Source: Sphaerolaimus hirsutus (lineage: Eukaryota; Nematoda; Chromadorea; Monhysterida; Sphaerolaimidae). Taken from it: a DNA stretch of 64,000 nucleotides. Shown here piece by piece: positions 16,246 to 54,100 of this stretch (positions within the stretch are counted from its first letter, which is position 1; each line of letters begins with the position of its first letter). Both the position numbers and the translations under genes were made by a program. The stretch spans positions 23,770,352 to 23,834,351 of the forward strand of contig OZ038453.1 in the NCBI GenBank assembly GCA_964036195.1, read 5' to 3'. The notes beneath the pieces were generated by a model. The model worked only from the letters and a program-made list of their open reading frames with translations. It made no database searches and had not been told where the DNA came from.

Positions 16246-17318
16246 CCTCGCCGTAATGAAAACCCGGCCGTAATGAAAGCCTGGCCGTAATGTATGCCCA
16301 CCCGGCCGTAATGAAAGCCTGGCCGTAATGTAGGGGATGCTACATTCCGGCCGGGCAACATTCCGGCCGGTTTTACATTACGGCCGGGTCCTAGGGGGGG
16401 ATGGGAGTAGATGATTTTGTGTGACGTTGATCTGTGTACATCACCCCCCCCGCAGGCAGCCAAATGTGCGCTTCCCGACATGCTTTCATCTGCACCGCCC
16501 AGCACACGATGACAAATAGCAAATGATAGCATGATTGGATTTGTCGAGGCTTTTTGCTATTTTGGCTTTGAGCTATTTTAACGGAACAATGTGCAACAAT
16601 GACAGACGCGTGCACTAGCGTTGGGCACCGGTAGCCGGGTCGCATTTCACAACGCCAGCACAACATATGAAAACCGACTCGGGTACCGGTGCCCAACACT
16701 AGTGCACGCGTCTGTCATTGTTGCACATTGTTCTGCTGAACAGCGGAACAATGACAGTCGCGTGCCCTAGCGTTGGGCACCGGTACCCGGGTCGCTGTTC
16801 ACAACACTAGCACAAATATTTGTCGCTAGTATAAACTGATTGTTCATTCGCGGCATTGTGCTAGCGTTGTGAACAGTGACCCGGATACTAGTGCCAAACG
16901 CTAGTGCACGCCACTGTCATTGTTGCACACTGTTCAGCGGAACAATGTGAAACAATGACAGTCGCGTGCCCTAGCGTTGGGCACTGGTACCCGGGTCGTT
17001 GTTCACAACGCTAGCACAAATATTTGCCGCGAGTGAACAATCTCTAATACTAGCGTTGTGTAAAGCGAGGGCTGGGCGGTGCAGATGAAAGCATGTCGGG
17101 AAGCGCCGGGGGGGGGGGGGTGATGTACACAGATCAACGTCACACAAAATCATCTACTCCCCTCCCCCCCTAGGACCCGGCCGTAATGTAAAACCGGCCG
17201 GAATGTTGCCCGGCCGGAATGTAGCATCCCCTACATTACGGCCAGGCTTTCATTACGGCCGGGTGGGCATACATTACGGCCAGGCTTTCATTACGGCCGG
17301 GTTTTCATTACGGCCGCT
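16246..17318. mobile_element. 1.1-kb foldback element with CGGCCGTAATG arms
   Basis: The left arm repeats CGGCCGTAATGAAAGCCTGG several times and continues through AACATTCCGGCCGG. The right arm (17160-17318) is its inverse. The next layer inward, TGTACATCACCCCCCC against GGGGGGGTGATGTACA, is also inverted. The centre holds at least three units with TTGGGCACCGGTA-type motifs and the paired sequence GACAGTCGCGTGCCCTAGCG. No open frame is convincing. No target duplication was identified. Confidence 0.8.
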
Positions 17319-21357: not shown

Positions 21358-24300
21358 TCACAAACTGGCATCATGAGTATTTTCAAAATTTTGAATATTC
21401 TTTTTGCTGTCCTGCTCATTATTGTTTCCATTATCAAACTGCAGCTTCTTTTGTCCACTCTTTGCTGTCAAGTTTTGTTTTTTTCCACCAGCGCTTGTGA
21501 AGTGCTCATTTTCTCGATTTTCGAAGTGAGCTTTACCAGCTTCCTCATTTTGCAAGCCACATAAACGGAGGCAAAATTCAATTATTTGGAAAATTGCCAT
21601 GAAAGACAAGCCTACATACAGGCCCAGTGTGCCACCAAGGCTGGACAAAAGTTTCTGAAATGTCTGTGCTTTGTTTTCTACTGTCAGCATATAATCTGTA
21701 TTCTGAATTGTGAAATGAGTTGTTCACAGTGTTATTTTGTACAATTTAACTCAACGTACTGCCAGATAAATGACCACTTTTGCCAGTGACAATTTCACAT
21801 TTTCCTTGTATGTAACATTGGCCAATTCTGGAATTTTCTGCCTCCATGGACCCTGAAAAACTATTTTTATTGTTCAAATTATGTATAAAGATGACAAATA
21901 TAATATCTCAATGGTGATCATGTGTCCAGTTATGTGAAATACTAGCAGGATTCTCTATACAGCTTCAGTCCAGTTTTGTGCTATTTACATATTACAGATA
22001 GACACCTTTCAAGACAGGTTTGGCACCATTTTTTCTTTGGTGCCACACTTTCTCTTCTGCTATGGAAGATATGGAAGCTATGGAGCTGCTTTAACCTATT
22101 TTGGCCATTTACTGGTTTTTGTGATTTTTCCTCCTTCCTTGTTAGTATATCTTGAAAAAGAATATATGTATATTAGACCCAGAAAACAACCCTCCAACCC
22201 AACCCCCCCCCCCCAAAGTTCATATACCATATTACCTCGGATTATCCCCCCCCCTTTGATAAACCCCCCCTTTGATAAACCCCCCCTCGAAATACCCCCC
22301 TAAACTTGAGTGTAAAGAGAACGTACATGACAAATACCGCAGTTTGTGATCTGTACAATGCATAAATCACGTAAAAAGTGATGATCAAGTAACGTTAGGG
22401 AAGGGCTTATGTGTACATACAGTTATATATGCCAATAAACACATACATCCACATAATTGTTCGATTTTTCTACGTCTGCGTATGGGGAATTTCTGAAAAT
22501 TTCTGGCAAAATAAAAGACCCCCCCCCCCTCGAATAAACCCCCCCTCAAATTTTGCTGGCGAAATAACCCCTGGGAGTATTTTGAGGTAATACAGTATCT
22601 ATCCCCCCTGAAGAGTGATTTTCTATCTGTCCAACCTACTGGGTCAAAATCTACGATTTCACTGACTTGCTTTCCAAGCCACATCTGGCACCTACATGCT
22701 TGGGGACACTCCCAGACCCTGTGAAGCGTAAAAAACCCTGTAAAATGACATGTGTAATGTAAAAAAACCTTGTAAAATGTCATGTGTCAAGTAAAAGACC
22801 CTGTAAGATTTCATTTGTATCCTAATAAGGGTGTCAAATTTCCGTTTTAGGTTTCCGTTTTCTGCAGGCCAATTTTTTCTGTTTTCCGGCTGCTGAATTT
22901 TTTTCTGTTTTCCGGCTGCTGAATTTTTTTCTGTTTTCTGGCCACTTTTTTCCATTTTTGTTTTTCCAGCTCATTTTCCGTTTTTTTTTGGCTAAATTTT
23001 CAGCTTTTCCGCCTTTTTTCCGTTTTCTGCCTCAATTTCCAGTTTTACCGCCTTTTTTCCATTTTCCGCCTCAATTTTCCATTTTTCTGCCTCATTTTAC
23101 TTTTTTCTGGCTCAACTTTCTGTTTTCTGTTCCAGCCAAACTAGTAAACATTCATGCAGATTGTCAATTATGTAACAAAAAATTTCTGTTTCCAGCAAAA
23201 TTTCTGCAAATTTTTTCCACTTCCAGCTAAATTTTTGCAAATTTTACCGTTTTTTTTAGCAAAATTTCTTTTGAAATTTTTTTAAATCCATTTTCCACCA
23301 AGTGCAAATGTTTTTTCATTTTCCTTCCGTTTTTCAGCCGCTGAAAATTTTTTCCATTTCCGTTTTCTGTAAAAAAGTTTTTTTGACACCCTAATCCTAA
23401 TCTTATTTTATCATATCCAAATTTTATGTCTTTGTATCCAAATCTTACATTTTGACATAGCATTTGTATTGAAAAAGCTAATATTTGGATACAATAGAAA
23501 AAGATTTGAATACACATGACACTTTACATGGTCTTTTGCATGACATTTGATACTAAACAGGGTCTTTTACATGACATTTTACAGGGTCTGGGAGTGGTCT
23601 GGCCACTCAAGTTCTTAATTAATGGACACTTTTCTTATACAACAATTATGAATTCCCTCAAGATGCACTCCGCTGCATACTTCACATATTTTTCCTCTTC
23701 GTTTGGATACACCTGTAGTCAGCATCACCATTTACACAAAGTGACTGTTTACACAAACCAAATAAGTTCTCAAGCGCAGCATAAGGCCATGCAATAATCA
23801 ATGCATTTTCTCAAGTGTCTGAATTGTCAAAAATCAATTCATTAAGATTGAAAAAACTGACAATGTGTTTTTCAAAGTATTCCTTCTTAGGCCATCGGCT
23901 GCTTGAAATCTTGCTGTTAAATAGTGTCTCAAAACATGCTGGTGGGCACTGTGTTATCTGGTTACAAATTTTTCCTGCCTGAACATCAGCTTCTATCTAC
24001 AAGCGAATTTGCCATGATGCCAAAATTCAGCAGACTTTAAAACATGTGAATGAGTGGAACATACCCCTTTAATGCAAGTCTTATCATTGATTACATCACA
24101 AGCTGCAAAGTTTGATTGGTTCTCACTAAAATGAGTGACCATATCAGAACCAAAATGAGTGACCATATCATCATGTGTTACTGCATCAACTGGCACACAT
24201 GAGCACCTGTTGATGATCTCAATTGTATAACAACTGTATATACATGCATGGTGTGTATAGTTAGACTGCTTTTTAGATGACACTTTGCTGAAAATTGGAA

Positions 24301-27300
24301 ATTTAGTTATTTTTTGTTATGTTAAAGATAGAACTGAAAGGGTGCTGCACCAATGTGCCAGTGGCACTTGACACCCTTGGCTTCTAGCCAGGGGTCTCAA
24401 ATGGGGGGGGGGGGTTGGTGGGGGGCGTTACCCCCCCCCCCAGACCGCCCAGCTATCTATCTATCCTGGAGGCCGCTCAGCTATCTATCTATCCGAGAGG
24501 CAAAATTTTAGGCTACTACCCCCTAAACCCCCCCCCCCAAATCACTCAGCTATCTACCTATCTGGAGCGATTTTTGAGAAAATATACCCCAATGTTTGCT
24601 CAAAATCGCTATTTTTCATACCTTTTTATAGATTTTCACCTCCAAAATACTAGTTGATGTTCCTATTTACCTATTTTAACCTATTTTTGGTACTATATGC
24701 TCTTATATATGTATTTTGAGCTATTTTACACCTACTTTTAGCGATTTTTCTCCCTTTCTTCCTTCTACACCCTGAAATAGCCTATATATTGAACCACCAC
24801 AACCGCCCCAATACCCCCCCTCCCCGCCCACCCCCAAATTTTTTTCAAACTATCTATCTATCCCGAAGGCTGCTCAGCTATCTATCCAAATACTCAGAGG
24901 GTCAAAATTCATTTAAATACCCCTGCTCCTAACTGCTATCCAAGTTTCTATTTGCATTTTATAAGGATGCAAGTGAAAGGTGCAGCATGTAATTAAGTGA
25001 CCACAAATGGTCATTAATGGCAGCCCACATGCTAGTTGACATGTGTTGACTTAATTGCATTCTGTGGCCATTATCTGTGATGCTGATGGAAATACTGCAT
25101 CTTTCAGTCTCATTTGTATAAAGTGAAAACAATAACTTGGATGTGTGCCAAGTTCACACATATTCTTGTGAATGAATTTGTTGGGGTGTGGCATTAAGAT
25201 ACTGTACAATTCAATTTTCTATAATGATATGTCTATCAAATGCATTTCTGACTGAAAAAATGTACCATGAACTGAATGGAATCTGTCTATTCAAATTCAA
25301 ATTTAAACACATACATCATTCATATATCAGCACTGACTCATTTCATGTCTGCTGAGTTTAAATCACTGATTGATACACACTCACCTTTTGAAAATGCTGT
25401 TTTCATTAAATTCATCCATTTTATCTGCATTACCACAGTCAGACCTGCCCCAAGGTTTTTGCAGTCTCTGTGTCACAGTTTTGGTCACTGCAAAAACTGT
25501 CGCAAAGCCTGGACTGATTGTGATGCCATTGTCACCCATCATCACAGCATAATTTGGGTGGTGTATGGCAATCTGATTAGGGATTTCATGAGTGTCCATG
25601 GAATATTCATAAGTATGAGGTGTGCAGTATCACTCCAGCTTCTATTCTGCTGCTTTAAAGAGCTTTTCACTTCCTTTGTAGAAATCACATTCAATTTCAT
25701 GAAAGCTGAAGCAGTCTCCATAAAATGTCATTCAATTTACCTTTTTTGAGCATTTTTATGGCTACAGGAAAGATTACAAAGTAATTCATAGTACATAGTC
25801 TCGGTTCATATTATGATTTAGCTGTATATACCATCCTTGTGTGGTTTGTAAAAAAATTGAAATACTTTTTTACGATAGTCATTAAAACATTTTATTCATT
25901 ACTCATTCACGCACTTTGAACCCTATTTCATCAGTCAAATCATCCATATATTCTTCATATTCTGTGAACAGAACCAACTGCAGGCCAAATTGTTTACCTG
26001 CCATAATTGAATTGTTTCTGTTTACTACAAAAGTGTAGCAATTTCCATTTGTTGCACCTATCTGTGGTTTTAGATAATGGAAAGTCATTAGAAGTAATTT
26101 TTGTGAAAAATTTCCTGGAACTAACAAAATATGTGAAATTGTGTACACCACAGTTCTGTGATTCAAATGTGCAATCAATCAACATTTTTTGAACATCATG
26201 GCCATAGTTTTTGAAATTTATCTGTAAAACATATTTACCTGTAAAAAGTATAGTCACGCTAAGGTCTTAACAAGATATATGGAGGATGGAAAAATGTTTT
26301 TTTTCAATGTCCCAATTTTTTATACATAAAACAGATTTTAGAGCTCCCAAATGAGTCAACATCATATTAAAAACGTTTGATGTATGTCATCCACAGCAAA
26401 CAATGGGTGTGTGGATGTGCGGTGAAGTGTCGGGAAGTGCTTCCTGACGCTTCACCAAGCATGCTGGCGCTTCCACACACATCACGAAAATCTACATGAA
26501 GGCACTTCACGCTCCCACACACATGTATACATATGGGATGCATGTGGAAGCGCCAGCGCCGTGAAGTGTTTTCCACATTTTGGATGCGCATGAAGCGCAT
26601 GGTGAAGATAGGTGAAGCCTGTGGAAGGCACTTCACCGAGATTTTCGTGATGTTGGTGGAAGCGTGTGGAAGCGCGCCGCTTCACGCGCATCCAGGCCGA
26701 TTCCACACGCTTCACAGATCCATTTTTTGCTGTGATCAAAAGCTGAAAAGCTTTTATCTGAAAATAAATTGCACATGCTACCATATTACCTCCAATATTG
26801 AAACTTGATCTTCAATATCGATATGATATGGAACTTTGATATCTATAATTGATATAAAAATGGTCAACATTCAATATTGCAATTTGCTTTTGGTATGGCA
26901 AGGCTAATTTCATACATCATTTTTATGTGGTTGCACACATGGTTTATCATCTCTACTGAAATGTGAATGATGCAAGTGATTTGAAAAAGGTTTACATCAG
27001 TCAAAACTAGAAAATGGACAAAAAACATTATATGAACTGTAATATCTAACAACAATGGGTAGATATTACAGTTCATACTTATAAATGAATTGGTTAATGC
27101 ATGTTGCAAAAAATAGCATATCAACATTTTCTGGCTTCAAATTTAGCACTCCAGCAAAAATGACATTATAAATACCATATTTCCTCTCAATACCGTCAGG
27201 GGGTTTATTTTTTCAGATTGGAAATTTTGAGGGGGGGGGGGTATTTCAAGGGGGGTGATTATTTCATCAGAAATTTTCAGGAAAGTCATACTAGAGAGTA

Positions 27301-29996
27301 TGTTTTTACATACCCCAAATCGGTAATAAACGTGACCAAATAGGGTATATACCGTATTTCCTTGGAATACCCCCTGGGGGTGATTGTTTCATAGTGGTCT
27401 CAAGAGGGGCGGGGGTAGAATGAGGGGGGGGGTTTCGAGGGGGGTTATTATTTCACAAGAAAATTTTTTAAATCCCAGTATGAAATTGTCGTCTGAAACG
27501 TATGCAGACGTTGAAAAATACAACAAAAACCGCCATTTATAAGGTTATGTAGACTAATATTAGTATGTAGACGGTATAAACACTGTTCTAACGTGACACC
27601 AACATTGTTTTAATGTGTGTTCTTCATTACACAGAACACAAACTACAGTTATTGTCATGTACATTCCCTTTACACTCAATTTGGGGGGTATTTCAAGGGG
27701 TCCCGTTTTCAAGGGGTCATTGTTTCATAGTGGTCCCGAGAGGGGGGGGGGGTAGAACAAGGGGGGGGGGAGTATTTCGAGGAAATACGGTAGGAACATA
27801 ACAGGGATGTAAATGTACATCGCTACACAAACTAGCGTATACATATAACTGCGATGCAAAATGATCGCAATAAATACATCATGTTCCTTGCACACATGAT
27901 GTACCTTATTCCAGAGGGGAGGGTATTTCGAGGGGGGGGGTAATTCAATGGGGGTATTTTGAGGAAATATGGTATTGTACTTTTACTCATCAAATAAAAT
28001 ACTATAAGTAAATCAGATCAATCACAAATATCTCAAAATGAAAATAAATAACTTTAATTAGGGATACAATACAGGTTCAATATATCGAAAAGGGTCGATA
28101 TCAATATTCAATATTTTTCAAAATTTTCTATATCAATATTAGATATTAGATACTTTTTCAAAATTTTTGATATCGATATTTGATATTAAAAAATGGTTGA
28201 TATTCGATATTCAATACGATATATGGTTTGAACTCTATTAGAGGGTACCTTATATTGGAGGTATAATGGTAATTAACATTGAAGGTTGTTTTCATGGGTT
28301 TTGTTGCATTTATAGTGACAAACTTTACATTTCTACATGCTTCCATGTAGTAATAAATCTGTGATATGTTAGTGTAGTATACAAATATCCAGTCAATGGA
28401 ATCAGCTTCCATGTGCCAATGACAATGAGCTTCTGAGGTATGATTCATTACTCTCAATTATCAACCCTCAATATGCCAGTATGTGATAATAAGCTGTAAT
28501 CAACCCCTTATATACTAGTGATAATAATGTGATAATAAGCTGTGATATATATTGATGAAGTATATCATATCCGGCCCATGTGCTCCTACACACTTGTACA
28601 GTGTGAGACATCACTCTCAATGTAGTGTATTTCCTCGAATTACCCCTGGGGGTTTATTTTTTCAGAGAAATTTTGAGGGGGGGTTAAATGAGGGGGGCAT
28701 TCCGAGGGGTTATTATTTCGCGAGAAATTTTTTGAAATCCCAGTACTAAATTGTTGTCTGTAACATGAGCAGACGTAGAAGAATGCAACAAAAACTGTAA
28801 CTCTAACAATCACTATCTAGACATATATTCATGTAGATGGTAACCCTCTTCTAACATAACACAGTCATTGTTTTGAACGTCTGTATTTACCGTGTGCCCG
28901 GATCACAAATCGCAGCTATTGTCATTTACGTTCCCTATACACTGAATTTAGGGGGGGGGGGTATTTTGAGGGGGTTTATAAATTCATAGTGCCCATTTTG
29001 AGGGGGGTATTTTGAGGAAATATGGTATAATACCGTCGGTATTAGCCTTCCCTTATTAACCTTATTTGAGCACTATTCCATGTTGAACTTCACTTGAAGT
29101 CACAAACATTTGATGGAAGGCATGTGATCAAAAAATGGATTTTTTTTGGCAGAAATCATGTTTGGACGGAGCTTTAAAAAAGTTGTATTTTTAAAGTTAT
29201 TTTTATTTTAAATGGGGTCATTGCTAGGGGCAGTACCTTTTGAAAAGCCTGAGTACTGTGAATACATCATACAAAGACTGACCTTGTGATCAAAAAGAAA
29301 TTTATAAAATCTCTCTTTGAATAAAGCATCAGTGCTGAAGTTTTGATCATTTTTTTCATTGTCCAGTTCTGACGTCGTATCCTGATGAGTATGCAAAATA
29401 AATTTGATGACTGTTATTTTTGAATATCTTTAAAGTTACCTTCCAAAGTTGCCAAATTGCTTCATTTTGTCGCAATTTATTTACTTTCAGGATATTCAAG
29501 TTGCAAATTGAAACTGCTGGAAATTCGTTCCTTTCATCTGTGACAACTTCCACTGTTGTTAATACTTTATATTCAAAATATGAACAGATCTGAGAGTATG
29601 TTGGCAATTTTTATGATGAAATGTGTTACCATATTTATTCCAATAGAAATGTACCTTACATTTTTGTCACATTTAAACACACTTTTTACGGTAGGTCTCT
29701 TCAATCAGGGTGAAATATGGTAGCATACTGAATAATTTCCATGAACTAACTTCTTGAATGCACTGCAAAATGCAAAGAAGCCACATTAGTACACTGATGA
29801 GAATCCAACAATACCTCCATTTTGGCCATTTCCATGTTCTTTTTATATCTAAGAATCCATTGGCATCTGTGTAATCACAGAAATCAATCACCTTCTCATA
29901 AAGTGTGGAATATTGCATTTCTATAAAATTTAGAGTATTTTTCATACTCACCCAAACCAACATTTTAATCAACTGAAAAGTCCATGCATTTGACAT
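21358..29996 (-). CDS. DEG/ENaC sodium channel subunit, gene A, 10 exons
   Basis: Exons in coding order: 29751-29996, 29440-29589, 29283-29381, 26126-26221, 25915-26061, 25385-25572, 24065-24287, 23862-23996, 21760-21852, 21358-21702. Phases agree and give 573 residues. Seen: TM1 at about 62-80; FPAVSICNLN just after it; cysteine-rich ectodomain with NYGHDVQKML, GNCYTF, ITISPGFATVFAVTK, CIYSCYTIEIINRCSCVP and ITQCPPAC; pre-TM2 NVKLSLAKVVIYL; TM2 at about 478-504 with LGGTLGLYVGLSF, including the G-x-S filter (490-492). The family forms trimeric, usually amiloride-sensitive Na+ channels in the plasma membrane, gated by peptides, acid or force; which applies here is unknown. The usual N-terminal HG gating pair reads NG. 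An 8-codon tandem duplication lies in exon 7. The exon 8 donor is GTCAGT. The start could instead be at 29963 or 29945. Confidence 0.92.
22229..22595. repeat. C-rich CCGTATTT-family MITE in gene A intron 9
   Basis: Left end ACCATATTACCTCGGATTATCCCCC, with several CCCCCC tracts, and right end TATTTTGAGGTAATACAGTA. It lies in the long intron between exons 8 and 9 of DEG/ENaC gene A. Confidence 0.65.
22700..23600. mobile_element. Introner-family MITE copy split by a nested element
   Basis: Left end GGGGACACTCCCAGACCCTG and right end CAGGGTCTGGGAGTGGT belong to the family that forms introns in white and gene B. The body is repeated ATGTCATGTGTAAT-like sequence, and the element at 22827-23393 is inserted in it. 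It lies well inside intron 8 of gene A, so it is not the source of that intron. Confidence 0.7.
22827..23393. mobile_element. hAT-like AGGGTGTCAA element with TTTCCG arrays
   Basis: Starts AAGGGTGTCAAATTTCCG and ends TTTGACACCCTA, flanked by the 8-bp duplication ATCCTAAT (22819-22826 and 23394-23401). The interior is an array of TTTTCCGTTTTCTGCC-like units, almost all pyrimidine on this strand. A sister element at 44253-44803 has the same ends with the complementary GGAAAACGGAAA array. Confidence 0.8.
24390..24920. repeat. CTATCTATCTATCC element
   Basis: C-rich tracts alternate with CAGCTATCTATCTATCC-type motifs at both ends and an AT-rich middle lies between. Similar sequence occurs at 55553-55966 and about 61955-62300. 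It is in intron 6 of gene A. Confidence 0.55.
26385..26745. repeat. Inverted-repeat element of GTGAAGCG / CGCTTCAC motifs
   Basis: Left side CACAGCAAACAATGGGTGTG and right side CCATTTTTTGCTGTGATC are partly inverted. In between, motifs GTGGAAGCG, GTGAAGTG and CTTCACGC occur repeatedly on both strands. It sits between exons 3 and 4 of gene A. Frames here are repeat by-products. Confidence 0.6.
26780..28239. mobile_element. Degraded TAGGGTTCAAACG-family element with nested C/G-rich MITEs
   Basis: The right end GATATATGGTTTGAACTCTA and the ATTCGATATTCAATA arrays at both ends match the element at 12908-13669 in reverse. Shared middle sequence includes TTCAAATTTAGCACTCCA. Between about 27175 and 27975 it is interrupted by CCGTATTTCC G-tract MITE material. 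It lies in the 3-kb intron between exons 3 and 4 of gene A. Confidence 0.6.
28624..29028. repeat. G-tract CCGTATTT-family MITE in gene A intron 3
   Basis: GTATTTCCTCGAATTACCCC at the left and TTTTGAGGAAATATGGTA at the right flank G tracts and an AT-rich core. Same family as 149-672. Confidence 0.6.
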
Positions 29997-31940: not shown

Positions 31941-34900
31941 CTAACCGCACCCCATGCTATAGCCGGCATTAGTGTTTATTGAGTCATTTAGGGTGGGATT
32001 TGGCATCTCGCCAATTTTTGATTCACATTGGTTTTCATTGGTTGGTTCATGATCTGATAAGACATTTTCTTGGCTGGATAGGTTATCTGGGTGTAATGAT
32101 GAAATTTTTATGGAGTTTTTAGTATTTGGCTGATTGGCTGCTAACAAGAATCACATCAAATTGGTTGTGAAAGGCTTTTGGAAATATGTTGTGATGGAAA
32201 AGTACCAGAAAAATGGCGCCAACAGCCACAGTAAAAGGCGCCATTAGTGCCATGGCACTATTAGAAAGGCATCAGGTGCCATTGGTGCCAGAAATTGTTA
32301 CTGCTTTCGATTACATTATGATGGCATCAATGGCTTTGGTATCATTATGAAAGGGAGTCACACCAGAAAATTTTGGCATGGTTCCTTTCAAAAAATGGTC
32401 TTTTGCACAACAGAAAATATGAGCCAACAGACAATATGAGCCATGCCAATGATGCTTTGGTACTATTCAATGATTTTCCCACCTTGTATAGCTGAGGTTT
32501 CACTCTGATCATCAACATTCATATTTGGTGAGTCACCTTCATTTCCACTCTCTATCCCCTGATGATCAATACCATTTGCATTTTGGCAATTTTCATTTTG
32601 ACCATTTTCACTTTCAATCAAATCTTGATTTTCTTGATTTTCAAAGTGTACTTTGCCAGCCTCCTCATTTTGCAATCCACACAAACGGAAGCATAATTCT
32701 ATCATTTGGAAAATTGCCATGAAAGACAAGCCTACATACAGGCCCAATGTGCCACCGAGGGTTGACAAAAGATGGAAAAATGTTTGTGCTTTGCTTTCCA
32801 CTGTCACTGTGTAATCCAGGCTCTGTTGCAAAAAGGGTTGTTTTGATTTTAAATGTTGTATTTACTTGAATAATTTCCCCTTTAATTATTCCCCTCTTGG
32901 ATAATTTCCCACCTGAATTATACCCTGTTGAATACTATACTATTGAACAATTCTCCCCTCTGTTAGACAATGAGGCAAAAAATCAATTTGTTGTGTCCAA
33001 TCTGAACAAAAATGGCAGGTTAATTTTGTTGCTAAAGCACATTTCATGAAATGAGTAGATAGAAACATGCTGAAAAATTCTACCAAAATGCTTATTGTTC
33101 CTTAATATTCCTCTCTCACCTAGTCCACCCTTGGAAATTACCAATGAAAAATAATCCCCCAGGGGATTTTTTTAAGCAAATACTACACCATTTAAAAAAA
33201 TTTCAAGTAAAATAAACATACTGCTTGATATATGACCAATTTTGCCAGTGATAATTTCACATTTTGATCTGTAACATTGGATAATTCTGGAATTCTCTGC
33301 TTCCACATACCCTGCAAATTTGTTGAAAATTTATTCATTTTAAAAAAATGGCTATTTCTCCTGTGGAAAGAAATATGGCAAATATGAGGGTGCTTGATTT
33401 TTAAACTGATTTTTCATATACTCTGCAGTCTTCTGACCTCATGATATGCATTTTGCTGAATGAAACACTAAAAAAGATTTCAGACACTGAAGATGTTCTG
33501 CTTGTACTTGACTTCACCTTTTTTGTAAAAGTTCTAATGTCATAATAAGAAAAATACCCACAATCTGTTTCTCAAGGTGTTCCTTCCTAGGCCAGCGACT
33601 GCTAGAAATTGTGTTGAGAAATTTTGTTTCATAGCACGCTGGCGGGCACTCAATCTCTCTGTCACAAATTGTCCCTTTTGTCAAGTCCAATTCCACCTGT
33701 ATTTTTTTAAAATTATGTCATGGTGGAAATGGTTTAAAAAGGATAAATAAATAAAAACAAAAATCTTCATTGCACCTACCATATATCCTCAATTCATTTC
33801 CCACCCAGTAAACTGGGGTAAATGTTTGAAAAGGTTTGGGATTCAGCTGGCGTTGGGTGACTATTCAAGGGGGAACTAAATGAGAAAATATGGTCAATGT
33901 GAATCAAACGAACAGTTTCCACACAGGCTTTAGAATGGTTTGGTTCACATGCTTCCACACTCGAATAACTCTCACCAAAATATGTGACTACATCAAGATG
34001 TGTCACTGTATCTGCTGGTGCACATGAACATCTGAGGGGCACTCCCAGATCCTGTAAAATGTTAAATGTCATGCAAAGTGTCAAAAGTCATGTAGATTGC
34101 CCCGCAAAATGTCAAATATCTATATCAAATGTCATGTAAAATCTCAAATTGTCTTAGTAGTAAAGTCTTTCCTTTTTAAGTTTAATTAGCACTTTGCATG
34201 ACATTTGACACCTTGCAGGGTGTGGGACAGCCAATACTGTGTAATGTCAAAAGTCATGTAAAATACCCTGTAAAATGTTTAAAAAAATCATTTCATTCAC
34301 TTGTTATCAGACATGTTACATGACTTTGACACTTTGCATGACATTTGACATTTTATATGACTTTTGACACTGCAAGACATTAAACTTTTTACAGGGTCTG
34401 GGAGTGGCACCTGTTTAGTATCTCTTTTATGTAACAGCTGTACACGCACATGTCATGTGTGTAGTTTGTCACAGATACAGATGAGATTTTGCTGAAATTT
34501 TTAATTCATTATCAGTTTTCACACTATGAAAGTAAATATATTTGTAGGTAAACACCTTCCCGGACAAGTTCACCACCCAATTTTTTATTTCACTTCGGAT
34601 GCAATATCTCCGTCCATGGGGGTGTTATAAAGCTAAAACTTTGTATATACATATAAAGTGGTAAGACCCCCTACTCCCCAACAATGGGGGGAGGTGCGGC
34701 GACTCACTACAGGGTGGGTCGCCCTATATGCGACAATTTTTTTTGGCGTTTTTGGTGTCCCAACCAAGTTCACCACCCACTTGATTGGCCACACTACGAA
34801 GGCCATATCTCCAGTTGTAATGATGGTAGAAAGCTGAAATTTGGGGAATGTCTTGCCAACAACCCCCCTCACAATACACCAGTGGGGCGGCTGCCGACGA

Positions 34901-37900
34901 CCCACTAAAGCATGGGTCACTGCAAATAAAGTTGACAATTTTATAAATGGTGTCCCAAAACAAGTTCACCACCCAACTGCATTATAAAAATGTTGCAACA
35001 ACATACCTAATATAAAACTGAATTATGTTGGAACCCTAGTTGAGCCAAAAAAAAGTTTTTCAGTAGGGCACCGACCCTGTCCCATAAACAGTAGACCGAA
35101 AATTTCACTTTAAATCAATTTTCATTTTCACACCTAAGAAGTTGGTTTACAAAGTTCACTAGAGAAGGGTCTAAGGTTCAAAGTTATGTAAACAACATAA
35201 CCTCTAAAATGCTTCCATAGTGAAATTTATTTCGGGTGAATGAAAAAGTGAAAATTTTGTCAAATTTTGTTCCTGCAATGACATCATTTTGACATTACAG
35301 AATTGACCCCAAGTAAATTTTAAAAGGAAGCATTTTGGAGGTTATGTTGTTTACATAACTTTGAACCTTAGATCCTTCCCTAATGAACTTTGTAAACCAA
35401 CTTCTTAAGTGTGAAAGCAAAAATTGGTTTAAAGTGAAATTTTCAGTCTACTGTTTATGGGATGGCGTGGGTGCCCTACTGAAAAAATTTTTTGGCTGAA
35501 CTAGGGTTCCAACAGGATTCTGTTTTATATTAGGTATGTTGTTGCAACATTTTTAAAATGCAGTTGGGTGGTGAACTTGTTTTGGGATACTTGAGCTGTT
35601 TTTAAAAAAAATGGTCAATATTATTTGTAATGACCCATGCTTTAGTGGGTTGTCGACAGCCGCCCCACTGGTGTATTGTGAGGGGGTTGTTGGCAAGACA
35701 TCCCCAAATTTCAGCTTTCTACCACCATCACAACTGGAGATATGGCTCTCGTAGTGTAGCCAATCAAGTGGGTGGTGAACTTGGTTGGGACACCAAAAAC
35801 GCCAAAAAAATTTGTTGCATATAGGGCGCAGTAGTGAGTAGTGAGTCGCCGCACCTCCCCCATTGTTTGGGGGTAGGGGGCTCTTACAACTTTACATATA
35901 CAAAGTTTCAGCTTTATAACACCCCCATGGATGGAGATATTGCATCTGAAGTGAAATCAAAAAATGGGTGGTGAACTTGTCCGGGAAGGTGTTTTTTATA
36001 CAGTGCAGGATAGCCCAAATTGACTTTTAAATTTTTTTTAGAGTTAGGTTATGAATTTCACATGTTATAGTGATAAATCAGCTAGGATAATGATTTAAAC
36101 AGATTTCATATTCAATGGATTATTTAAAAGTGAACAGACAAGTTTTGTGGTATAGTAGAATTGCTCTGTATTGTTCAGTTTTGAGACAATGTTGGGGTCC
36201 TGATTGAAATAGTTGATAATTATGTATCCACTTGATATTTATCTGGTTCTAATGGTGTTCCAATACAGTTGGAAAATCTTGTCTAGCCCTAAGCTCAAAA
36301 AATCGTAACCTAACTGTCAAAACTGTCAAAATAATGTTAAAATGCTGATCCTGGGCCACCCTGTAAAAATTCAAATCCATTTAAAAATGCAAACAACCAC
36401 CCAACCTCTTAACAATGCTGTTTTCATTAAAATCATCCCTCTTATCTGCATCACCACAATCAGACCTGCCCCAAGGTTTTTGCAGTCTCTGTGTCTCAGA
36501 TTTGGTCACTGCAAAAACTGTTGCAAAACCTGGACTAATTGTGATTCCTGAATCAGCCACTACTACAGCATAGGTGGGGTGATGTATGGCAATCTGATTG
36601 GGGAAATTGGGGAAACTGTTTTTTTGTGGTGGTGAAGTGACTTCACTCACATTGGTGAAGTGTTATACCATGTTTAAAGTGCTATGTAAGTGCTTTTCAA
36701 AGTGAGGAAGTCTAATAAGTATGTATAATAGCTGAAAGTTGGTAAAAATAACCAAAATTATGTGGAGCATAGCTAAAAATATGTAAATTTACCAAATAGA
36801 TGTGTCTCTGTATATTGCTAAAATTGAGATTAGGGCGAAAAAGTACAAAAATATGATATTTAGGGTGAAAAGTAGAGTACATTTACTAAAAATTTGCTCC
36901 ACATTGGTAGATAGCTCGGCCATTGTGGGGGGGGGGGGGCTTCTGCAGTTTAAAGCCAAAAAATTTTACATCTGATTGATATCTAGATAGCTGGAGCATG
37001 TAAGGATGTTCTAAAGCACGTATTGCCACATTCACAGTGATGCCAACTTTAAATTTACACTTAACTCACTTTAAAACCAATTTCATCAGCCAAATCATCT
37101 AAATATTCATTGTTTTCAGTGTACAAAACCATATGCAAGCCCAGCCTTTGGCTGTTTGGCACACGTGTTTCATCATTGTCAATTGTGAAGGTGTAACAGT
37201 TTCCATATTGGGGGTCTTCCTGTTGCATGGGTAATGGTTTTTGTGACTTGTGTGGCTACTGTGCCTACAGTAGTAATGGAAAAGAACCAGGTGCCACTCT
37301 CAGACCCTGTAAAATGACATGTAAAGTGTAAAATGTCATGCAAAGTGTCAAAAGTCATGTAAAATGCCCTGTAAAATGGCAAACTAGTTTGCCATTTTGC
37401 AGGGCATTTTACATGACTCTTAACACTTTGCATGTCATTTTACAGTTTACAGAGTATTTTACAGGATCAGTGAGTGCCCCCAGTACATTGACACCAAGTG
37501 CCAAAAGCTCCATGTTACTTTTCAAAATCCCAAGCACCAAGCGCCAATGGCGACAGGCAGAGCAAAGCGGCAAAGTTTGTTATGGCGCTAGCGCCAGGCG
37601 TTTTGCTTCGGGTGCCATGCAAAAATAGCGCTATGCACCATGGCCCTTTTTATGGGTCTGGCACCAAATGCCAATGGCGCCAGAGCAACATAGGCGCCAC
37701 ACACGCTAGTTGACATTGACACAAATGTCAACTGGTTCCGATCCCAAATCAATGCTTGCTGGCGAACCAAGGATCGACCTTCAAATACAAGCTTGGAATT
37801 GGGACCGGAACCAGTTGACATTTGTGTCAATGTCAACTAGCGTGTGTGGGGCCATAGCGCCAAGCTCCAAAAGTTCCATGGCGTTTTCTTCTGTGGCGTT

Positions 37901-40900
37901 AGTGCCTGGCGCCAGCGCTGTGGCGCTTTTTCTTTGAAATTTTACAAATCTCTTGTAGAATAGTGTGTGTAATTCATTCTTCTCATTGTACAGGTAAATA
38001 TTGAAAATAATTTCACTTGTGTTTCACTCACATAATGCGTGAAGTTGTGCGGACCACATTGCATTGACATGTATTTGCAATCGACCAACATTTGCCTGAT
38101 ATCGTGGCCATAGTCTTTGTATTTTATCTGAGCAAATTGGGAGTTTTTCAATGAGGTATCCAGATCTGTAGCAGATGCCAAATGGCGTTGCGCACACTCG
38201 TTTATTGCCAGTAAACTAAAATTTCTGTAAACTCATACTCGGAGGACAGCATGCGGTGAATTTTTCTGAAGGAAACCCTCTATCATGACGTCATCATAAA
38301 TAAAATAAAAATTGTTCTAAAAAAAAAAGAAAAAACGTTCCAGGAAAAACATTTGTCATTTGTACGCGACTCCGCCTTTTACTGTTTTAAAGATTATTTG
38401 TTTTGTTGTATTGGAAGTGTCCTTCTGCTGGAGGTATGCCGTACTATTCGACAAAATACGGTACTAGACAAGTGTGTGCTCTGAACTCCTGTATTACCTC
38501 GAATAATCCCCCCTTGAATTAACCCCCCCCCCCCCTCGAATTAACCCCCCCTCAAAATAGGCTGGGGAAATAATAACCCCCCTCGAAATACCCCCCCCCT
38601 TCGGAATGATGTACGCCATGTACATAATAAATACGTCATGTATGCAATGTACATGATGTGTATTACTGTTAATTTGCATTGCAGCTCCACATAGACTAGT
38701 TTGTGCAGCTATCTATTTATGTTTTTATGTCCAAATATATCCTGTTTGGACACATTTATTACCTGTTTTGGGTATGCAAATGCCTACTATTTACTACGAT
38801 CCTTACGGAAATTTTTAACGAAATTATAAGACCCCCCTCGAATCAACCCCCCTCGAATTAACCCCCCCTCAAATTTTGCTGGCGAAATAATAAACCCCCA
38901 TGGGGGTATTTCGAGGTAATACGGTATTTACATAAATATTTACAATTCACTAACCCTTTGGTCATAAATTGTCTTGTAAACATTTTCCGCAAACAAATCG
39001 TCAGCATGGTATTTTCCTTCATTGTCACCATTTTGTAACTCATCCCACGTTTTTGAAGCTTGAGCATCCTTTTCACTCGTGTCCTGTTTTATTTTAATTT
39101 AAAAAAATGTTTTTAAACCATTGACAATGACAAACTGTCAGGGGTATAGTAGGGGGATTTCATAATAATTTCTGTTGAAATAATAACTTCCACTCGAATA
39201 AGCCCCCTTGGATTAACAGCCCCTTCTGCAGAAACCCCCCAGGGGGGTATTCCGAGTAAGGCAATATATTGAACCCCTGCGACCCCCGACAGAAACATTT
39301 ATTGAAATCTGCAGAGTTGTTAAAAGTACAGAACTTTTTTTAAAGTATACGTAAACGTACAGTTTGTTTAATCACCCCGAGTACAGAAAACGTAAAGTAC
39401 TCAATTTTTTCAACTTTTACCCATGAGTAAGATACTTCCCCTACAGAAAACGTATAAGTGAGTGTTTTTTTGGAATTTTGCCCCAATTTTCGTACCTTTT
39501 TGACCAGTTAAACCTTCAAATTCACTAGTTCGTGTGTTATTTGCCTATTTTAAGCTATTTTTGGGGAAAAATTCCTATTTTCCGCTTTTTCTCCCTCTTT
39601 TCCATCGTTGCCTCGAAAAACAACTATAACAAAGACTATCTGAAATACGTTTTCTGTACTGGAGTACTTTCAAAAAGTATACGTTAACGCGAGTACAGCT
39701 ACTTTTTCAAAGTATACGTAAATGTATGTACTCAGTACTTTTTGAGTAAACGTAAATCAATACGTTTTAACAACCACGGAAATCTGCACCCCAGCAGAGG
39801 TGTAAATCTACAAAACCCCCGCCCTGACTTTTACAGCTGCTAACCTCAAAAATCTGCCATATCGCACTATTCTGCCTTATTTTGCTGACTTTGAATGGGT
39901 TCAAATTGCAAATGGTCACTGCGGGGAATTCCAAACCTTCCACATCGGTGACAACTTCGACTGTTGTTAAAACGTCGTATTCAAAGTATGACCAGATCTG
40001 CATAATATATGAGTGGATTTCAGTTGCAGATTCATAGTTTTATGTAGATAAAAGTTTAAAATTTTAGAAAAAACGTCAAATTCAAGGGGTGTCTGTCTGG
40101 ATTGCAGGCAGCTATACTCGGATGACATTACATCGTACATTTTTCCGGAGGAAACACTCCATCATGACGTCATCACTTTAGTCAGTCCTGGCATTCTTTC
40201 TGTTTCTTTTTGCGAAATATTGATTCATAAGTTTTCAATTGGCCGTCTGCCAGCCGAAGACGTAAATCATCTCTATTTGTAGAGTGTCATGTCTGCCGAG
40301 TATACCATACTTCTTGGACATGGACCGCAAAGTATGCGCCCTCAATTTACTTATGTCTTAGTATAGTTACGAGCGGGATACTTATGTATGCACTTCACAA
40401 AAAAAAATATTCCAAGCAGAAAAGGCGGAGTTACGTGCAAGCAATGAATGTTTTTCTCTGAAACGTTTTTTTTATTATGAATTTTTATTTTATTCACGAT
40501 GACATCATGGTGGAGTGTTTCCTTCAGAAAAATGCATAGCGTGCGGTCCGTGGAGTATACTTATTTATGTCTTAGGCACCAACGAACCAACGGCAAACTT
40601 ATGCACGAACTTTTACAAAATGAAATTAAAAAGAAAAAGGCGGATTCGAGTACAAACCAACATGGTTTCTGGCAGGAAACGTATTTTCCATTTTTTTGGA
40701 ACAATTCATATTTACGATGACGTCATGACGGAGTGTTTCATTCACAAAAATGCGGAGTGTATACCAGAAGATATATTATCAACTCCGCATTTTCAAAATT
40801 ATTTTCAAAAGAACCATAATAAGTTGTTTTTTTAACTTACATCGACTACACACTGTATAATACACAGAATCCACATAATGATGCTGATTATAACCCAAAA

Positions 40901-41083
40901 ATATCGCCATTTTGACCATCTCCAAGTTCTTTTAATATCCAGAAATCCATTAGCCACCGAGTAATCAGAGAAATCAGCCAATTTTACGTAAAACGCGGAT
41001 TTATTCATCGTGTTTTGTTTGTTATTTTCCTGAAATTTTGCAATTTTTTGTCGCACCGCATTGAGGCCCACTTTTATAGTCAT
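31941..41083 (-). CDS. DEG/ENaC sodium channel subunit, gene B, 12 exons
   Basis: Exons in coding order: 40841-41083, 39845-39997, 38955-39083, 38032-38127, 37070-37219, 36406-36593, 34411-34491, 33914-34031, 33562-33696, 33222-33311, 32483-32822, 31941-32140. Phases agree; about 640 residues. It is a close tandem paralogue of gene A with the same intron positions plus one extra (34032-34410) formed by a MITE. Seen: TM1 in WRYFWVIISIIMWILCIIQ; FPAVTICNLNPFKVSKI; YGHDIRQMLVDC; GNCYTF; ITISPGFATVFAVTKS; CVYSCYIKEILNRCSC; ECPPAC; TM2 with LGGTLGLYVGLSF. The N-terminal HG pair again reads NG. The last exon, an Asn/Ser-rich cytoplasmic tail ending YSMGCG, is inferred from donor ACAAG|GTGGG and acceptor CTTGTTAG in matching phase. 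Without it the frame stops at 32463-32465, giving 580 residues. A and B could co-assemble, but this is inference. Confidence 0.92.
34035..34410 (-). mobile_element. MITE forming an extra intron in gene B (introner candidate)
   Basis: Read on the coding (minus) strand, the exon ends AACAG and the element starts GTGCCACTCCCAGACCCTG. It ends GGGAGTGCCCCT followed by CAG and then ATGTTCATG of the next exon. The target CAG is duplicated at 34411-34413 and 34032-34034. In gene A the matching codons are continuous (ATCAACAGGTGCTCA). Donor CAG|GTGCC and acceptor CCCCTCAG| therefore coincide with the element edge and the duplicated target, and splicing restores the exact frame. Inside are two element-like units, perhaps a nested or tandem insertion. 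Confidence 0.9.
34551..35993. mobile_element. 1.44-kb palindromic foldback in gene B intron 6
   Basis: Arms of about 680 bases (34551-35235 and 35315-35993) are inverted copies. The outer ends read AACACCTTCCCGGACAAG and the inverse CTTGTCCGGGAAGGTGTT. The phrase GTTCACCACCCA recurs within each arm. The loop is about 80 bases. Short open frames in the arms mirror one another and are not genes. No target duplication was found. Confidence 0.85.
36600..37069. other. Gene B intron 5 without recognised element
   Basis: Between exons 5 and 6 of gene B. AT-rich sequence with a G run near 36927 and GATATCTAGATAGCTGGAGC, reminiscent of the CTATCTATC family but too decayed to assign. Confidence 0.4.
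37291..37480. mobile_element. Introner-family MITE copy in gene B intron 4
   Basis: Starts GTGCCACTCTCAGACCCTG and ends GGATCAGTGAGTGCCCC, with CAG immediately before (37288-37290) and after (37481-37483). The centre is a palindrome around CAAACTAGTTTGCCATTTTGC. On the plus strand its edges would be ideal splice sites, but it lies antisense in an intron of gene B. Confidence 0.85.
37490..37940. repeat. GGCGCC-type element with nested CTAGTTGACA element
   Basis: Degraded GGCGC/GCGCC motifs at both sides enclose an element at 37691-37850 whose ends are CACACGCTAGTTGACATTG and its inverse. Similar CTAGTTGACA elements with the phrase AATGTCAACTGG are at 52086-52392, 62960-63235 and 63443-63549. 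Confidence 0.6.
38240..38480. repeat. TACTCGG MITE with conserved CATCATGACGTCATCA
   Basis: Related to the cluster at 40113-40766: it shares CATCATGACGTCATCA, GCGACTCCGCCTTTT and CATACTCGG. The left end is at about 38237 and the right end is unclear. Confidence 0.5.
38490..38935. repeat. C-rich CCGTATTT-family MITE in gene B intron 3
   Basis: Left end TGTATTACCTCGAATAATCCCC and right end GTATTTCGAGGTAATACGGTA. Both sides carry CCCCCCTCGAATTAACCCC tracts. A smaller relative is at 39130-39270. Confidence 0.7.
39315..39774. repeat. GTAAACGTAAA-family foldback in gene B intron 2
   Basis: Starts GTTGTTAAAAGTACAGAAC and ends ATACGTTTTAACAAC; the interior matches the copies at 7794-8326 and 19488-19957. 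Confidence 0.7.
40113..40766. repeat. Cluster of TATACTCGG mariner-like MITEs in gene B intron 1
   Basis: One unit (40113-40304) has ends TATACTCGG and CCGAGTATA. It runs into a second (to about 40559, ending GTGGAGTATA) and a third fragment ending near 40766. Shared internal motifs are ATGACGTCATCA and AAAATGCATAGCGTGCGGTCCG. Diverged copies are at 50356-50584 and 59184-59442. Confidence 0.65.
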
Positions 41084-42976: not shown

Positions 42977-43282
42977 CCCAAAGTGGAATCAAAGCAATGA
43001 TCTGGTATTGTAAGAGTTTTTTACGTTCATTCGTTTATTCGGATGGGATATGGTAGATTTCATTTTCAAGTGTTCTGTAAATAGACTATACCAATCCCTA
43101 GGGGGTATTGTTGCATCTAAGATGTTTGTAGAAAGAAATCACCACGTGAAACTTTTAATTTATCACAGCAATAATCACACATTCACCAGCTTTCGGACAA
43201 TCTCAATAACAAAGAAATGGTATCCAGTTTTTGGTGCATCAATCAATGTTTCAACTGAAAAGTTTTTATGAACAGTTCACAG

Positions 43283-43471
43283 GTGCCAGTCCCGGACCCT
43301 GTAGAATGCCCTGTAAAATGTAAAATGTCATGCAAAGTGTCAAAAGTCATGGAAAATGCCCTGCAAAATGGCAACCGAGTTGCCATTTTGCAGGGCATTT
43401 TCCATGACTTTTGACACTTTGCATGACATTTTACATTTTACAGGGCATTTTACAGGGTCTGGGACTGCCCC
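43283..43471. mobile_element. Introner-family MITE copy, intergenic
   Basis: Starts GTGCCAGTCCCGGACCCTG and ends GGTCTGGGACTGCCCC, flanked by CAG at 43280-43282 and 43472-43474. The arms are near-perfect inverse copies around a GGCAACCGAGTTGCC centre. It shows the same CAG|GT ... CCCC|CAG arrangement as the copy in gene B, but outside any recognised gene. Confidence 0.88.
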
Positions 43472-43500
43472 CAGAAGATACATATGGGTCACTATTAATC

Positions 43501-44803: not shown

Positions 44804-44892
44804 ATCGTAACTGTTATCGTTCTGTTGAAACGTCGGTGAAAAGAATGTATTGTTGTGTATAGGTAAAATTGAAGAAAAAAATTCACCTGAGA

Positions 44893-45140
44893 CCACTCCC
44901 AGACCCTGTAAAATGCTCTGTGAAATGTCAAATATCATGTAAATTGTCATGCAAAATCTCAGTAACAAGCAGTAAACGAAATAAACGTAAATTATTTCAT
45001 TCCATTTAATTTTCACGTGAATAACATCTTTCAGGATTTTTATATTTTTCTCATGATATTTGACATTTTACATGGCATTTTACATGACATTTTACATGGC
45101 ATTTTACAGTGTCCAAAAATGGCACCAGAAGCACCAATCC
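44893..45140. mobile_element. Introner-family MITE copy, diverged
   Basis: ACCACTCCCAGACCCTGTAAAATG at the left and GACATTTTACATGGC repeats at the right match the family. The right terminus is altered (GTGTCCAAAAATGGCACCAG). Other partial copies lie at about 48885-49040, 52860-53084 and 60140-60527. Confidence 0.6.
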
Positions 45141-45320: not shown

Positions 45321-45741
45321 CTGTATTACCTCGAATTTTCCTCCGCCTTGAATTACCCCCCCCCCTCAAAATCGGCTGGCGAAATAAGAACCCCCTCGAA
45401 ATGGGCTGGCGAAAGAAGAACCCCCCTCAAAATGGGCTGGCGAAAGAAGAACCCCCCTCAAAATGGGCTGGCGAAAGAAGAACCCCCCTCAAAATGGGCT
45501 GGCGAAAGAAGAACCCCCCTCAAAATGGGCTGGCGAAAGAAGAACCCCCCTCAAAATGGGCTGGCGAAAGAAGAACCCCCCTCAAAATGGGCTGGCGAAA
45601 GAAGAACCCCCCTCAAAATGGGCTGGCGAAATAATTTCCCTCTAGAAATACCCCCATCCCGAATGATGTACGTCATTTATGCAATGTAAATACATGGTGT
45701 ATTTATTACTGCTAATCAGGGTATTTTGAGGTAATACGGTA
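45321..45741. repeat. C-rich CCGTATTT-family MITE carrying a minisatellite
   Basis: Ends TGTATTACCTCGAATTTTCC and TATTTTGAGGTAATACGGTA. Between 45366 and 45632 it holds nine copies of a 31-bp unit. Confidence 0.75.
45366..45632. repeat. 31-bp tandem repeat, nine units
   Basis: The unit reads AAAATGGGCTGGCGAAAGAA plus GAACCCCCCTC. The seven central units are identical by eye; the outer two carry single changes. Because 31 is not a multiple of three and the unit lacks stops, the array is open in all forward frames, which explains the long repetitive open frames here. These are not genes. Confidence 0.9.
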
Positions 45742-51168: not shown

Positions 51169-54100
51169 TCACTTTTTCTTCCCTTTATGCACCTGCGAAG
51201 CCACCTTTTCCTCAATCATTCGCTTTTCATCCTCGATCCTCTGTAACTCATCTTCGATTGATTGTAGCTCCATTTTCACGGAACGGGCCGCTTCGCCGTA
51301 GCGAGATTCCAGCTGGGTTTTTTTTGGGGGGGGGGGGTTATTAGTCGACCAAAATTGGGGGGTCACCGATCCGAAAATCGGGTGATTTTCAGGAAATCAC
51401 ATGATTAATCCGGATAATAAAAAATTATCGCAGGAAAATATATTTCTCCCGGAAAAATTATGAATAAATATGATATTTCTAATAATTCCTAAACAGAAAG
51501 AAATCTCACTTTCTAAATTTTTTTAGAATATTTCAAATATACTCGACGGCGAATTTTGTCACGATCTCTATCTCAAAAATCGCAAATAAACAAAACTGTC
51601 AAAACATTTTCAAAAGGCATCTAGGCACTTAAAAAGGCACCATCGCACAAAAAAACTCACATCATTTTCCCTCTTTTTAAGTTCCTCTTCCAGCCGCACC
51701 ACGCGCTCGGTAAATTTATCCTTCATTTGTTTTTCCTTTGCGTGCAGTTCCTCCCGGAGGGCGCGCCGGCGCTGCGAAACGCGTTTCCGGTAAGGATTTT
51801 CGGTTTCGGTGTGAAAAAATAAGGTACGGCGAATAATGTGTGAAAGGGTAAATCGACTGCCAGCTAGGGTGATGAATAAATTTAATATTTTTATTTTAGT
51901 TTTTTTTCAATTGATTTCAATAATTCGAACGTCAATGCGATTTTTGGTGGAAAATTTGTTTGGTTGCGATTCGCTGGGCACATTTTGCGCAATTTTTTAC
52001 GCAAAGATATTAACTAAATTACTGTAACTAATAGAAACACCGGTATTCTTCTCATACATCTTATCTGTAAACCCGGAATGAACATTCGCTCACACTCTAG
52101 TTGACATGGACACCACCAAATGTCAACTGGTTTCCAACCCAATTCAAAGCTCGCTGATGCGTAATAACACGCATTATTGTATACACAAGCAGTTCATGCC
52201 CGCCTTGTATTTACATCACACCACAACATGTATTTAAATCACACCACAATATTTTTTTAAACCACCGCAGCTTCATTAGCAACATGATTCAATAATTTTG
52301 CACTTGAACGTCGTCCATCGGCTCTTGATAAAGCTTTGAATTGGGATGGGAACCAGTTGACATTTGGTGTCCTTGTCAACTAGTGTGTCCATCTCATCAC
52401 ATTCAAAAGTCCAGACTTACTTCCTCCACCATGTGCGCCATGTTGGGCCCAGTGTCCCCGTCCTTCACGCCCATCTTGGTCAGGCGGTCCGCCCTGCGAA
52501 AAGTTATGCAAAATTGCGGGGTGAAGAATTGATTGTAAATTGAATATGTTGTTGTTTTGGGTTGCAAAATGTATATTTTGTCGATTACCGCCGAAAATAT
52601 AACAAATTCAATCAACATTATTAGTGTCTCTGCAACACACTTTTCCTTATTTCACGATTTTAGACTCTCATTCTCACTTTTTACAAAATTCTCTTCTATC
52701 CACCACTGATTTTTCTAGACATAAAAGTGCAAAAAAATTGCCGATTGGGATGGGATTCGAACCCACGCGGGCATTGCCCATTGGATTAGCAGTCCAACGC
52801 CTTAACCACTCGGCCACCCAATCATGAAACCAAAGGTCCTTATTTTTACCCGTCTTTCTGTGGTTTACACTGCATGACATCAGACATTTCCCAGGGCATT
52901 CTACATGACTTTTGACAGTTTGCTTGACATTTGCTATTAACACGGCATTTTACATGTCTTTTGACACTTTGCAAGATATCTGACATTTAACAGGGCATTT
53001 TTTACGACTCTTGACATTTACACGACTTTTTACACTTTGCATGACATTTGACATTTTACAGGGTCTGAGAGTGGCCCCAGGATAGGACAAATACGCCCTT
53101 CAAATGAATTACACAAATCCAAAAAATCAACACAACCACAAACCTATACGCCTCATAATGCACCCTGTGGGTCCTTTCCCTCAAATGCTCCACATTAGTC
53201 CTCAATAAAGCCTCCCTCAATTTCACAAAATCGCAATGTTGTTCATTTTCAACTTCCACAACCCCCCAGGGGTATTGCCTGGCGCGCACTTTTTTACCCC
53301 CCGCAGTCGTGACGAAATCCACTGAGCCCACCACGGCGAATGGAATCAATTCCTGTGGGGGGGGGGGTAATTGAGTTTAAGTGGATTTGTTTAAATGGGG
53401 CTGCGCGCACACTAGTTTACTGTTATTTAGTAAACTCAAAATTTTGTAAACTCATAAATCAAATTTGAATGGTACATGAGTTTACTGGAATTAGGTGTTC
53501 GTCAACTTGTTGACGGAGAGTAAAATTAAAACACTCACTCATTCCAGTAAACACATGTGTTCAAGGCTAAGTTATGAGTTTTCACAAATTTTCACTGGTA
53601 AAGTAGTGTGCAGCGACATTACGGCGCCTTGCGCCATTACTGAAAAAACCCATGACGTCATATTTTATCTGGCGCTTCTCACCTTCAATATATTGTTTCA
53701 AAAATTAAAAAATTACATGCTACTTTGACAGGTGGGAAAGCGGATCAAAGAAAAACTTACATTAAGTCTGGTGTTGACTTGAGCGAATTTCTCATCGTCC
53801 ACTGGAAACTTGTACCAGTCAATTTTGTGCGAACGCAGCTCGCTGATAATCTGCGAAATTGGCAAAAATAGTCAGATAAAAACTAAAAAACGCAAAAAAT
53901 ACAAAAAATGCAAATAAAACACCTTGGTTTTGAACCTGGCCAATTCCTGTTTGCTAGTCGTGTCCGCCTTTGCGATCACTGGAATAACGCAGCACCGTTT
54001 GGATAGCTCGCCGAGCGCGACCAGATCCAAAGCTTTCAGGCTGGAAAAGCGGTTTTGGTGGTTGTGAAACGTATATTGCACTTTCTAAGTGACACAAGTG

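Follow-up and report, generated by a model that had tools for sequence, protein, structure and literature searches.

A foldback MITE as the probable source of an extra intron in a nematode DEG/ENaC channel gene

One of two tandem DEG/ENaC channel paralogues in the nematode Sphaerolaimus hirsutus carries an intron that its neighbour lacks, and this intron was probably made by a transposon, via insertion of a MITE at a CAG within a coding exon, a reading to which we assign a probability of about 0.7. Both genes are encoded on the minus strand of the window, i.e. the whole 64,000-nucleotide stretch of DNA that was analysed, and their models were derived via exon homology and splice sites. Gene A (21358-29918) comprises 10 exons and encodes 547 aa, gene B (32463-41083) comprises 11 exons and encodes 580 aa. 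Every one of the nine introns of gene A is paired in gene B, which possesses one more. This additional intron 7 (34032-34410, minus strand, 379 nt, phase 2), our candidate for a MITE-derived intron, is taken up over its whole length by a foldback MITE, CAG|GTGCCACTCCC...GGGAGTGCCCCT|CAG; it is absent from gene A and present in a further paralogue, gene C. Without the element, gene B has an uninterrupted frame of 580 aa and matches PF00858 (the ASC domain) over nearly the full Pfam profile (E 2.1e-76, positions 2-455 of 455). A query with gene A against 5.8 billion proteins returned two distant PF00858 proteins with 24-25% identity, and the relatives of these genes with solved structures are ENaC, ASIC and FaNaC. 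Another, large foldback element with several arm pairs that are 91-95% complementary (34550-35994) takes up the greater part of gene B's intron 6.

An earlier note on this DNA had claimed that the exon concerned is continuous in gene A and interrupted in gene B, and that gene A represents the element-free form. Both statements are borne out by the sequence and the gene models: the homologous exon 7 of gene A (24065-24287, minus strand) is unsplit, and its gene B equivalent is divided into exon 7 (34411-34491, minus strand) as the upstream half and exon 8 (33914-34031, minus strand) as the downstream half. On the coding strand, gene B exon 7 closes with AAACAG at 34411, the insert starts with GTGCCACTCCCAGACCCTG (34410-34392) and ends with CAGGATCTGGGAGTGCCCCT plus CAG (to 34032), and exon 8 starts with ATGTTCATG at 34031. 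Read from the sequence, the CAG target is duplicated (upstream copy at 34411-34413, the final 3 nt of exon 7; downstream copy at 34032-34034, included in the intron) and the GT-starting end of the element lies upstream, so that the insert is bounded by CAG|GT...CAG|. The direct CAG repeat, which the note had likewise described, is real, being exact in gene C and accompanied in gene B by one extra T between terminal repeat and CAG, a base that is missing in gene C. The GT of the predicted 5' splice site originates from the GT-end terminal repeat (34392-34410, minus strand), the AG of the predicted 3' splice site from the downstream CAG; the GG-end terminal repeat, GGGGCACTCCCAGATCCTG, occupies 34036-34054 on the plus strand. 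Hence, the proposal that one splice dinucleotide resides in the element and the other is taken from the duplicated target holds in both B and C. That the CAG belongs to the terminal repeat was rejected, as the triplet stands in direct and not in inverted orientation at either end. With its terminal inverted repeats and the 3-bp CAG target duplication, the inserted sequence is indeed a MITE, as had been suggested.

Joining gene B at CAG|GT...CAG| gives AACAG|ATGTTCATG, to be compared with the continuous AACAGGTGCTCATG of gene A (24287-24065). The join encodes N-R-C-S-C as in gene A, in phase 2, and the alignment of both genes shows no residues lost or gained at the CAG junction. The claim that these splice positions restore the gene A codons is therefore correct as a description and fails as evidence for splicing: codon restoration is expected for any insertion with target duplication, and we rejected it as proof for this reason.

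The element is a repeat and not a chance arrangement, as the window contains 14 occurrences of its 15-mer core CACTCCCAGACCCTG at no more than 3 mismatches, versus 0.58 expected. An end model recovered about 10 copies in the window, some of them partial or weak. A search of the genome (348 Mb, 762 contigs), in which 40 of 3438 first-look candidates were scored, gave at least 143 matches, and the stretches round the matches were fetched. Pairing of left and right ends yielded 39 elements, or 38 after an edge pairing in L031 had been dropped; two of these were re-paired, their first pairing having ended at an internal repeat. Independent copies number 36 of the 38, one copy in L009 and one in L010 being gene C equivalents of copies at gene B. 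The flanking triplets are identical in 17 of 38 copies versus 9.2 in shuffles (p 0.0004, 5000 shuffles), with the gene B copy counted as a mismatch by the script owing to its extra base. CAG or CTG stands at both flanks in 21 of 38 copies, and the two triplets agree in 16 of these 21 (10 CAG/CAG, 6 CTG/CTG); in the remaining 17 of 38 copies, one or both flanks carry a different triplet. With the copies oriented by their more GT-like end, this end reads GTGCC in 25 of 38 cases and the opposite end GGGGC in 29. Taken together, the triplet and end counts point toward CWG as the preferred target duplication and toward an element of which typically one end only offers GT.

Between the modelled ends, the elements measure 145-486 bp, with one of 906 bp (L031 edge pairing excluded), and the list of open reading frames contains none of 60 aa or more that lies wholly inside 34032-34413. 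The family is short, non-coding and multi-copy, with terminal inverted repeats and a target duplication, all of them features of MITEs; its CWG duplication is a trait of NuwaI within PHIS (PIF-Harbinger). The element is probably a non-autonomous DNA transposon that was mobilised by a PIF/Harbinger-like transposase of the NuwaI type with CWG target, and its membership of the NuwaI group appears likely. Copies with a CAG duplication are located within intron 4 of gene B, antisense to it (37288-37483, plus strand), and upstream of gene B (43280-43474, plus strand); the foldback arms of the latter are 96% complementary, and positions 43283-43474 are predicted to fold into one unbroken hairpin. The end model placed a further copy with CTG and CAG flanks at 44887-45128 (minus strand), and a 904-bp copy without a matching flanking triplet is found in intron 8 of gene A (22700-23603). 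An element copy at about 52864-53081 adjoins a tRNA-Ser (GCT) gene (52740-52824, minus strand). The window also contains an inverted repeat (16250-17314) with 202-nt arms that are 100% complementary and 661 nt apart, as well as a tandem array of a 31-base unit (45329-45665) with inner copies that are 98-99% identical.

Apparent exonic copies in other genes were judged by eye, not blind, from open frames, start codons and Pfam; since a composition-based classifier separated coding from non-coding sequence poorly, the exonic list rests on these three. GT...AG with an exact join is seen at six independent sites in apparent exons (gene B/C, an Ldh_2 gene, an SDR gene, L028, L037 and L004), and six more copies are off this simple rule. 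In the Ldh_2 gene (L033), the GT end lies upstream with AG at the downstream border, and a Pfam match extends across the join (E 5.5e-28). The same arrangement of GT upstream and AG downstream is seen in the SDR gene (L027, 523-695), where adh_short is matched across the join with E 1.1e-7, or E 6.2e-12 when the next presumed exon is added. At L028, L037 and L004 (the latter with CTG as left and CAG as right triplet), the join is exact and the frame open, with no Pfam family above the cut-off. Pfam support across the join thus exists for two of the five sites outside gene B/C. The SDR gene contains two element copies (523-695 and 875-1020) about 180 bp apart, apparently in one exon.

The copies off the rule are those at 4953-5152 in the window, L014, L021, L022, L027 (875-1020) and L039. 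The first of these (plus strand) interrupts what looks like a coding exon of a gene that, by its sequence motifs, we take to be a White-like ABCG transporter; no Pfam match was obtained for this exon. Its GT end is upstream, CCG stands on both sides, and an AG inside the repeat, if used as acceptor, would add 9 nt in frame. Its flanks also agree over a longer stretch, CCCGGTGTC on both sides; a target duplication of 8-9 bp was rejected for the family, the matching copies of which have 3 bp, and the longer flank match can be put down to the juxtaposition of the element end GTGTC and a flank GTGTC. No in-frame GT...AG join was found by hand for L014, L027 (875-1020) and L039, and no AG was found at the downstream end of L022. 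Among these, the second SDR copy and L039 have CTG targets, and L014 and L022 differing triplets. L021 (550-725), in an apparent coding exon with CAG on both sides, is reversed with its GG end upstream, so that the simple GT...AG rule cannot explain it. The off-rule copies may represent deleterious alleles, errors of the assembly, exons that were misjudged, or other splice choices. In 11 of the 12 apparent exonic copies the GT end is upstream (gene B/C, L033, L027 twice, L028, L037, L004, 4953-5152, L039, L014 and L022, with L021 reversed); as this list was not compiled blind, the orientation count was set aside as evidence.

The strength of the predicted splice sites, scored with a matrix from the 18 other introns of genes A and B, counts against splicing at CAG|GT...CAG|. 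The donor CAG|GTGCCA scores -2.2, compared to 3.9 for the worst of the 18, and the acceptor GCCCCTCAG|A scores -4.1, compared to a worst value of -3.5. Competing acceptors in the element are located at -338 (5.2), -236 (11.0) and -20 (7.9, frame-shifting), and a competing donor in the exon, CAT|GTGCGT, reaches 5.6 at 39 nt upstream; every GT within the element stays at or below 2 with this local matrix. For the intron RNA, folding predicts a single long hairpin (MFE -137.5 kcal/mol, not equalled by any of 100 shuffles, z -10), at the ends of which GUGC and CCCCUCAG are unpaired. According to the predicted ensemble, the -20 acceptor is fully paired and the terminal acceptor unpaired, the -236 acceptor is partly paired and half open, the donor is partly free (first G unpaired with probability 0.58), and an inner donor, CCU|GUAAAA, 18 nt into the element, is paired almost completely. 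As a foldback element folds anyway, the hairpin offers a possible mechanism and no proof, and a structure of such tightness could also impede the branch site.

Gene C is located 43.7 kb off and is 93% identical to gene B (1430-column alignment), with the element at the same position. No match to its exon 1 was found in L009 and L010, and it is without the end of exon 6; gene C may therefore be decaying. A fourth DEG/ENaC gene, the A-like gene D, has its first exons at about 3071-3712 of L009. Comparison of B and C over exons 2-11, excluding exon 1 and the exon 6 end that C lacks, revealed 17 changes that are synonymous and 5 that are not (dN/dS 0.074, p 9e-9), compared to differences at 219 of 3788 well-aligned intron sites (5.8%). 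Upstream of the element, dN/dS amounts to 0.019 (13 synonymous, 1 non-synonymous), and downstream to 0.26 (4 synonymous, 4 non-synonymous; p 0.06), where 32 non-synonymous changes would be expected at the intron rate. For exons 9-11, 3 synonymous and 4 non-synonymous changes compare with about 27 non-synonymous ones expected, the number of sites being estimated. The purifying selection seen in both genes, which is weaker past the element on the downstream side, indirectly favours splicing and supports it better than the restored codons do. Since the element is present in both genes, whichever of the two is functional tolerates it. Across the block of exon 7, element and exon 8, genes B and C differ at 8 of 554 aligned sites, and in intron 8 at 12 of 214; the element intron itself (L002 and L009; host C4:23760638-23760994) differs at 6 of 354 sites versus 213 of 3434 in the other introns (p 1.7e-4). 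This low divergence probably reflects local gene conversion or constraint. Given the high similarity round the element, gene conversion may have moved it after the duplication, and possible conversion between B and C after that event limits the selection argument.

The weak splice sites with their stronger competitors, one of which is frame-shifting, the exon parts missing from the element-bearing gene C and some other exonic copies without a simple in-frame solution would suit an ordinary disruptive MITE insertion, which leaves gene B unspliced or mis-spliced and becoming a pseudogene, with the codon match a product of target duplication. We regard this as rather unlikely, however, as gene B without the element retains its open frame and nearly complete PF00858 domain, the dN/dS between B and C is low despite the element in both, and the downstream non-synonymous changes lie 8-fold under the intron rate. 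Instead, the element could be spliced at other sites, i.e. the exonic donor, the inner donor or an AG in the terminal repeat, to give an altered protein. The exonic donor outscores the predicted one (5.6 vs -2.2) and would cost 13 codons in frame, and the inner donor is in frame with the CAG acceptor and would add six residues; in addition, the aligned element ends often show the motif CCTGTAAAA, the White-like copy has its in-frame 9-nt addition, and some introners add codons according to a figure legend of PMC9860276 (Fig. 2F). Yet no GT of the element exceeds 2 in the local matrix, the inner donor is almost fully paired in the predicted hairpin, and the alignment of A and B is free of lost or added residues if the CAG junction is used, so that splicing at such sites appears quite improbable.

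An ancestral intron that was lost in gene A, and the old version of which was replaced or filled by the MITE in B and C, is formally possible as far as the loss is concerned. It would have to be reconciled with element ends and target duplication that coincide with both intron boundaries without residue of an older intron, with CAG on both sides of non-exonic copies as well (e.g. 37288-37483), and with the nine other introns that gene A has kept; we consider it very improbable. The transposon origin of the gene B intron remains our preferred explanation. Accordingly worded as a sequence of steps, a foldback MITE of a many-copy family would have inserted at a coding-exon CAG of gene B or of the B/C ancestor, with duplication of the CAG and with the GT-starting end facing upstream. 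The pre-mRNA would then fold into a single long hairpin, with the 3' end CCCCUCAG unpaired, the 5' end GUGC mostly so, and the nearest stronger acceptor concealed, before the spliceosome would remove the element and the protein would be unchanged. The element may likewise have given rise to introns, or to attempted ones, in further genes and would then constitute an introner family. That the animal is in a burst of intron gain by one CWG-target foldback MITE family, which supplies a ready-made GT...AG intron with a hairpin exposing mainly the terminal sites whenever a copy lands in the right orientation at a CAG, is a more tentative reading, to which we give somewhat less than even odds. If it were true, hundreds or more new introns in coding exons would be possible. 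The simple rule predicts that copies with GT upstream and mainly CAG targets survive in exons. The gene pair would offer a before/after picture, the sister copies elsewhere are parallel tests within one genome, and the locus represents a natural experiment on whether hairpin folding permits the use of weak splice sites.

The interest of this case lies in the family and in its animal host. Introners of the DNA-transposon type are reportedly also a subject of Huff et al. 2016. The mechanism is already known and not new, and the family is unreported in the literature searched, where word searches of open-licence papers, which cannot find a sequence, yielded no report of it. The origin of new introns is a long-standing question, and excerpts of PMC9860276 give few transposon-made cases in animals: across animals and land plants, introners turned up in two groups only, both of them animals. 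Introners that carry the 5' splice site and co-opt the 3' site are described there (Fig. 2C), in agreement with the earlier note, which had called this division of labour known. Like the element studied here, the DNA-transposon introners of Gozashti et al. (2022, PMC9860276) are, in the same excerpts, non-autonomous and have terminal repeats and a target duplication; the element differs by its 3-bp CWG target and by the fact that its splicing is predicted. In passages of PMC4482050, the CWG target duplication defines the NuwaI group of PHIS (PIF/Harbinger), which occurs mainly in animals. NuwaI thus shares 5'-CWG-3' target duplications and animal hosts with the element; most of its autonomous candidates encode a DDE transposase and a Myb/SANT protein, and intron-making goes unmentioned in those passages. 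The introner elements of Amoebophrya, as portrayed in parts of PMC7789003, resemble the element in their hairpin-capable inverted repeats and the short direct repeats at exon borders, but have mostly non-canonical splice motifs and a dinoflagellate host. Similarly, the non-canonical introns of euglenids and diplonemids have ends that base-pair and meet, and a MITE origin has been proposed for them (PMC12621601, in part); unlike the element, they are not GT-AG and reside in protist hosts. The same portion of that source reports that non-canonical introns have taken the place of most standard ones in the chordate Fritillaria borealis. Set beside these systems, the element most probably belongs to an introner family derived from a CWG-target, NuwaI-like DNA transposon.
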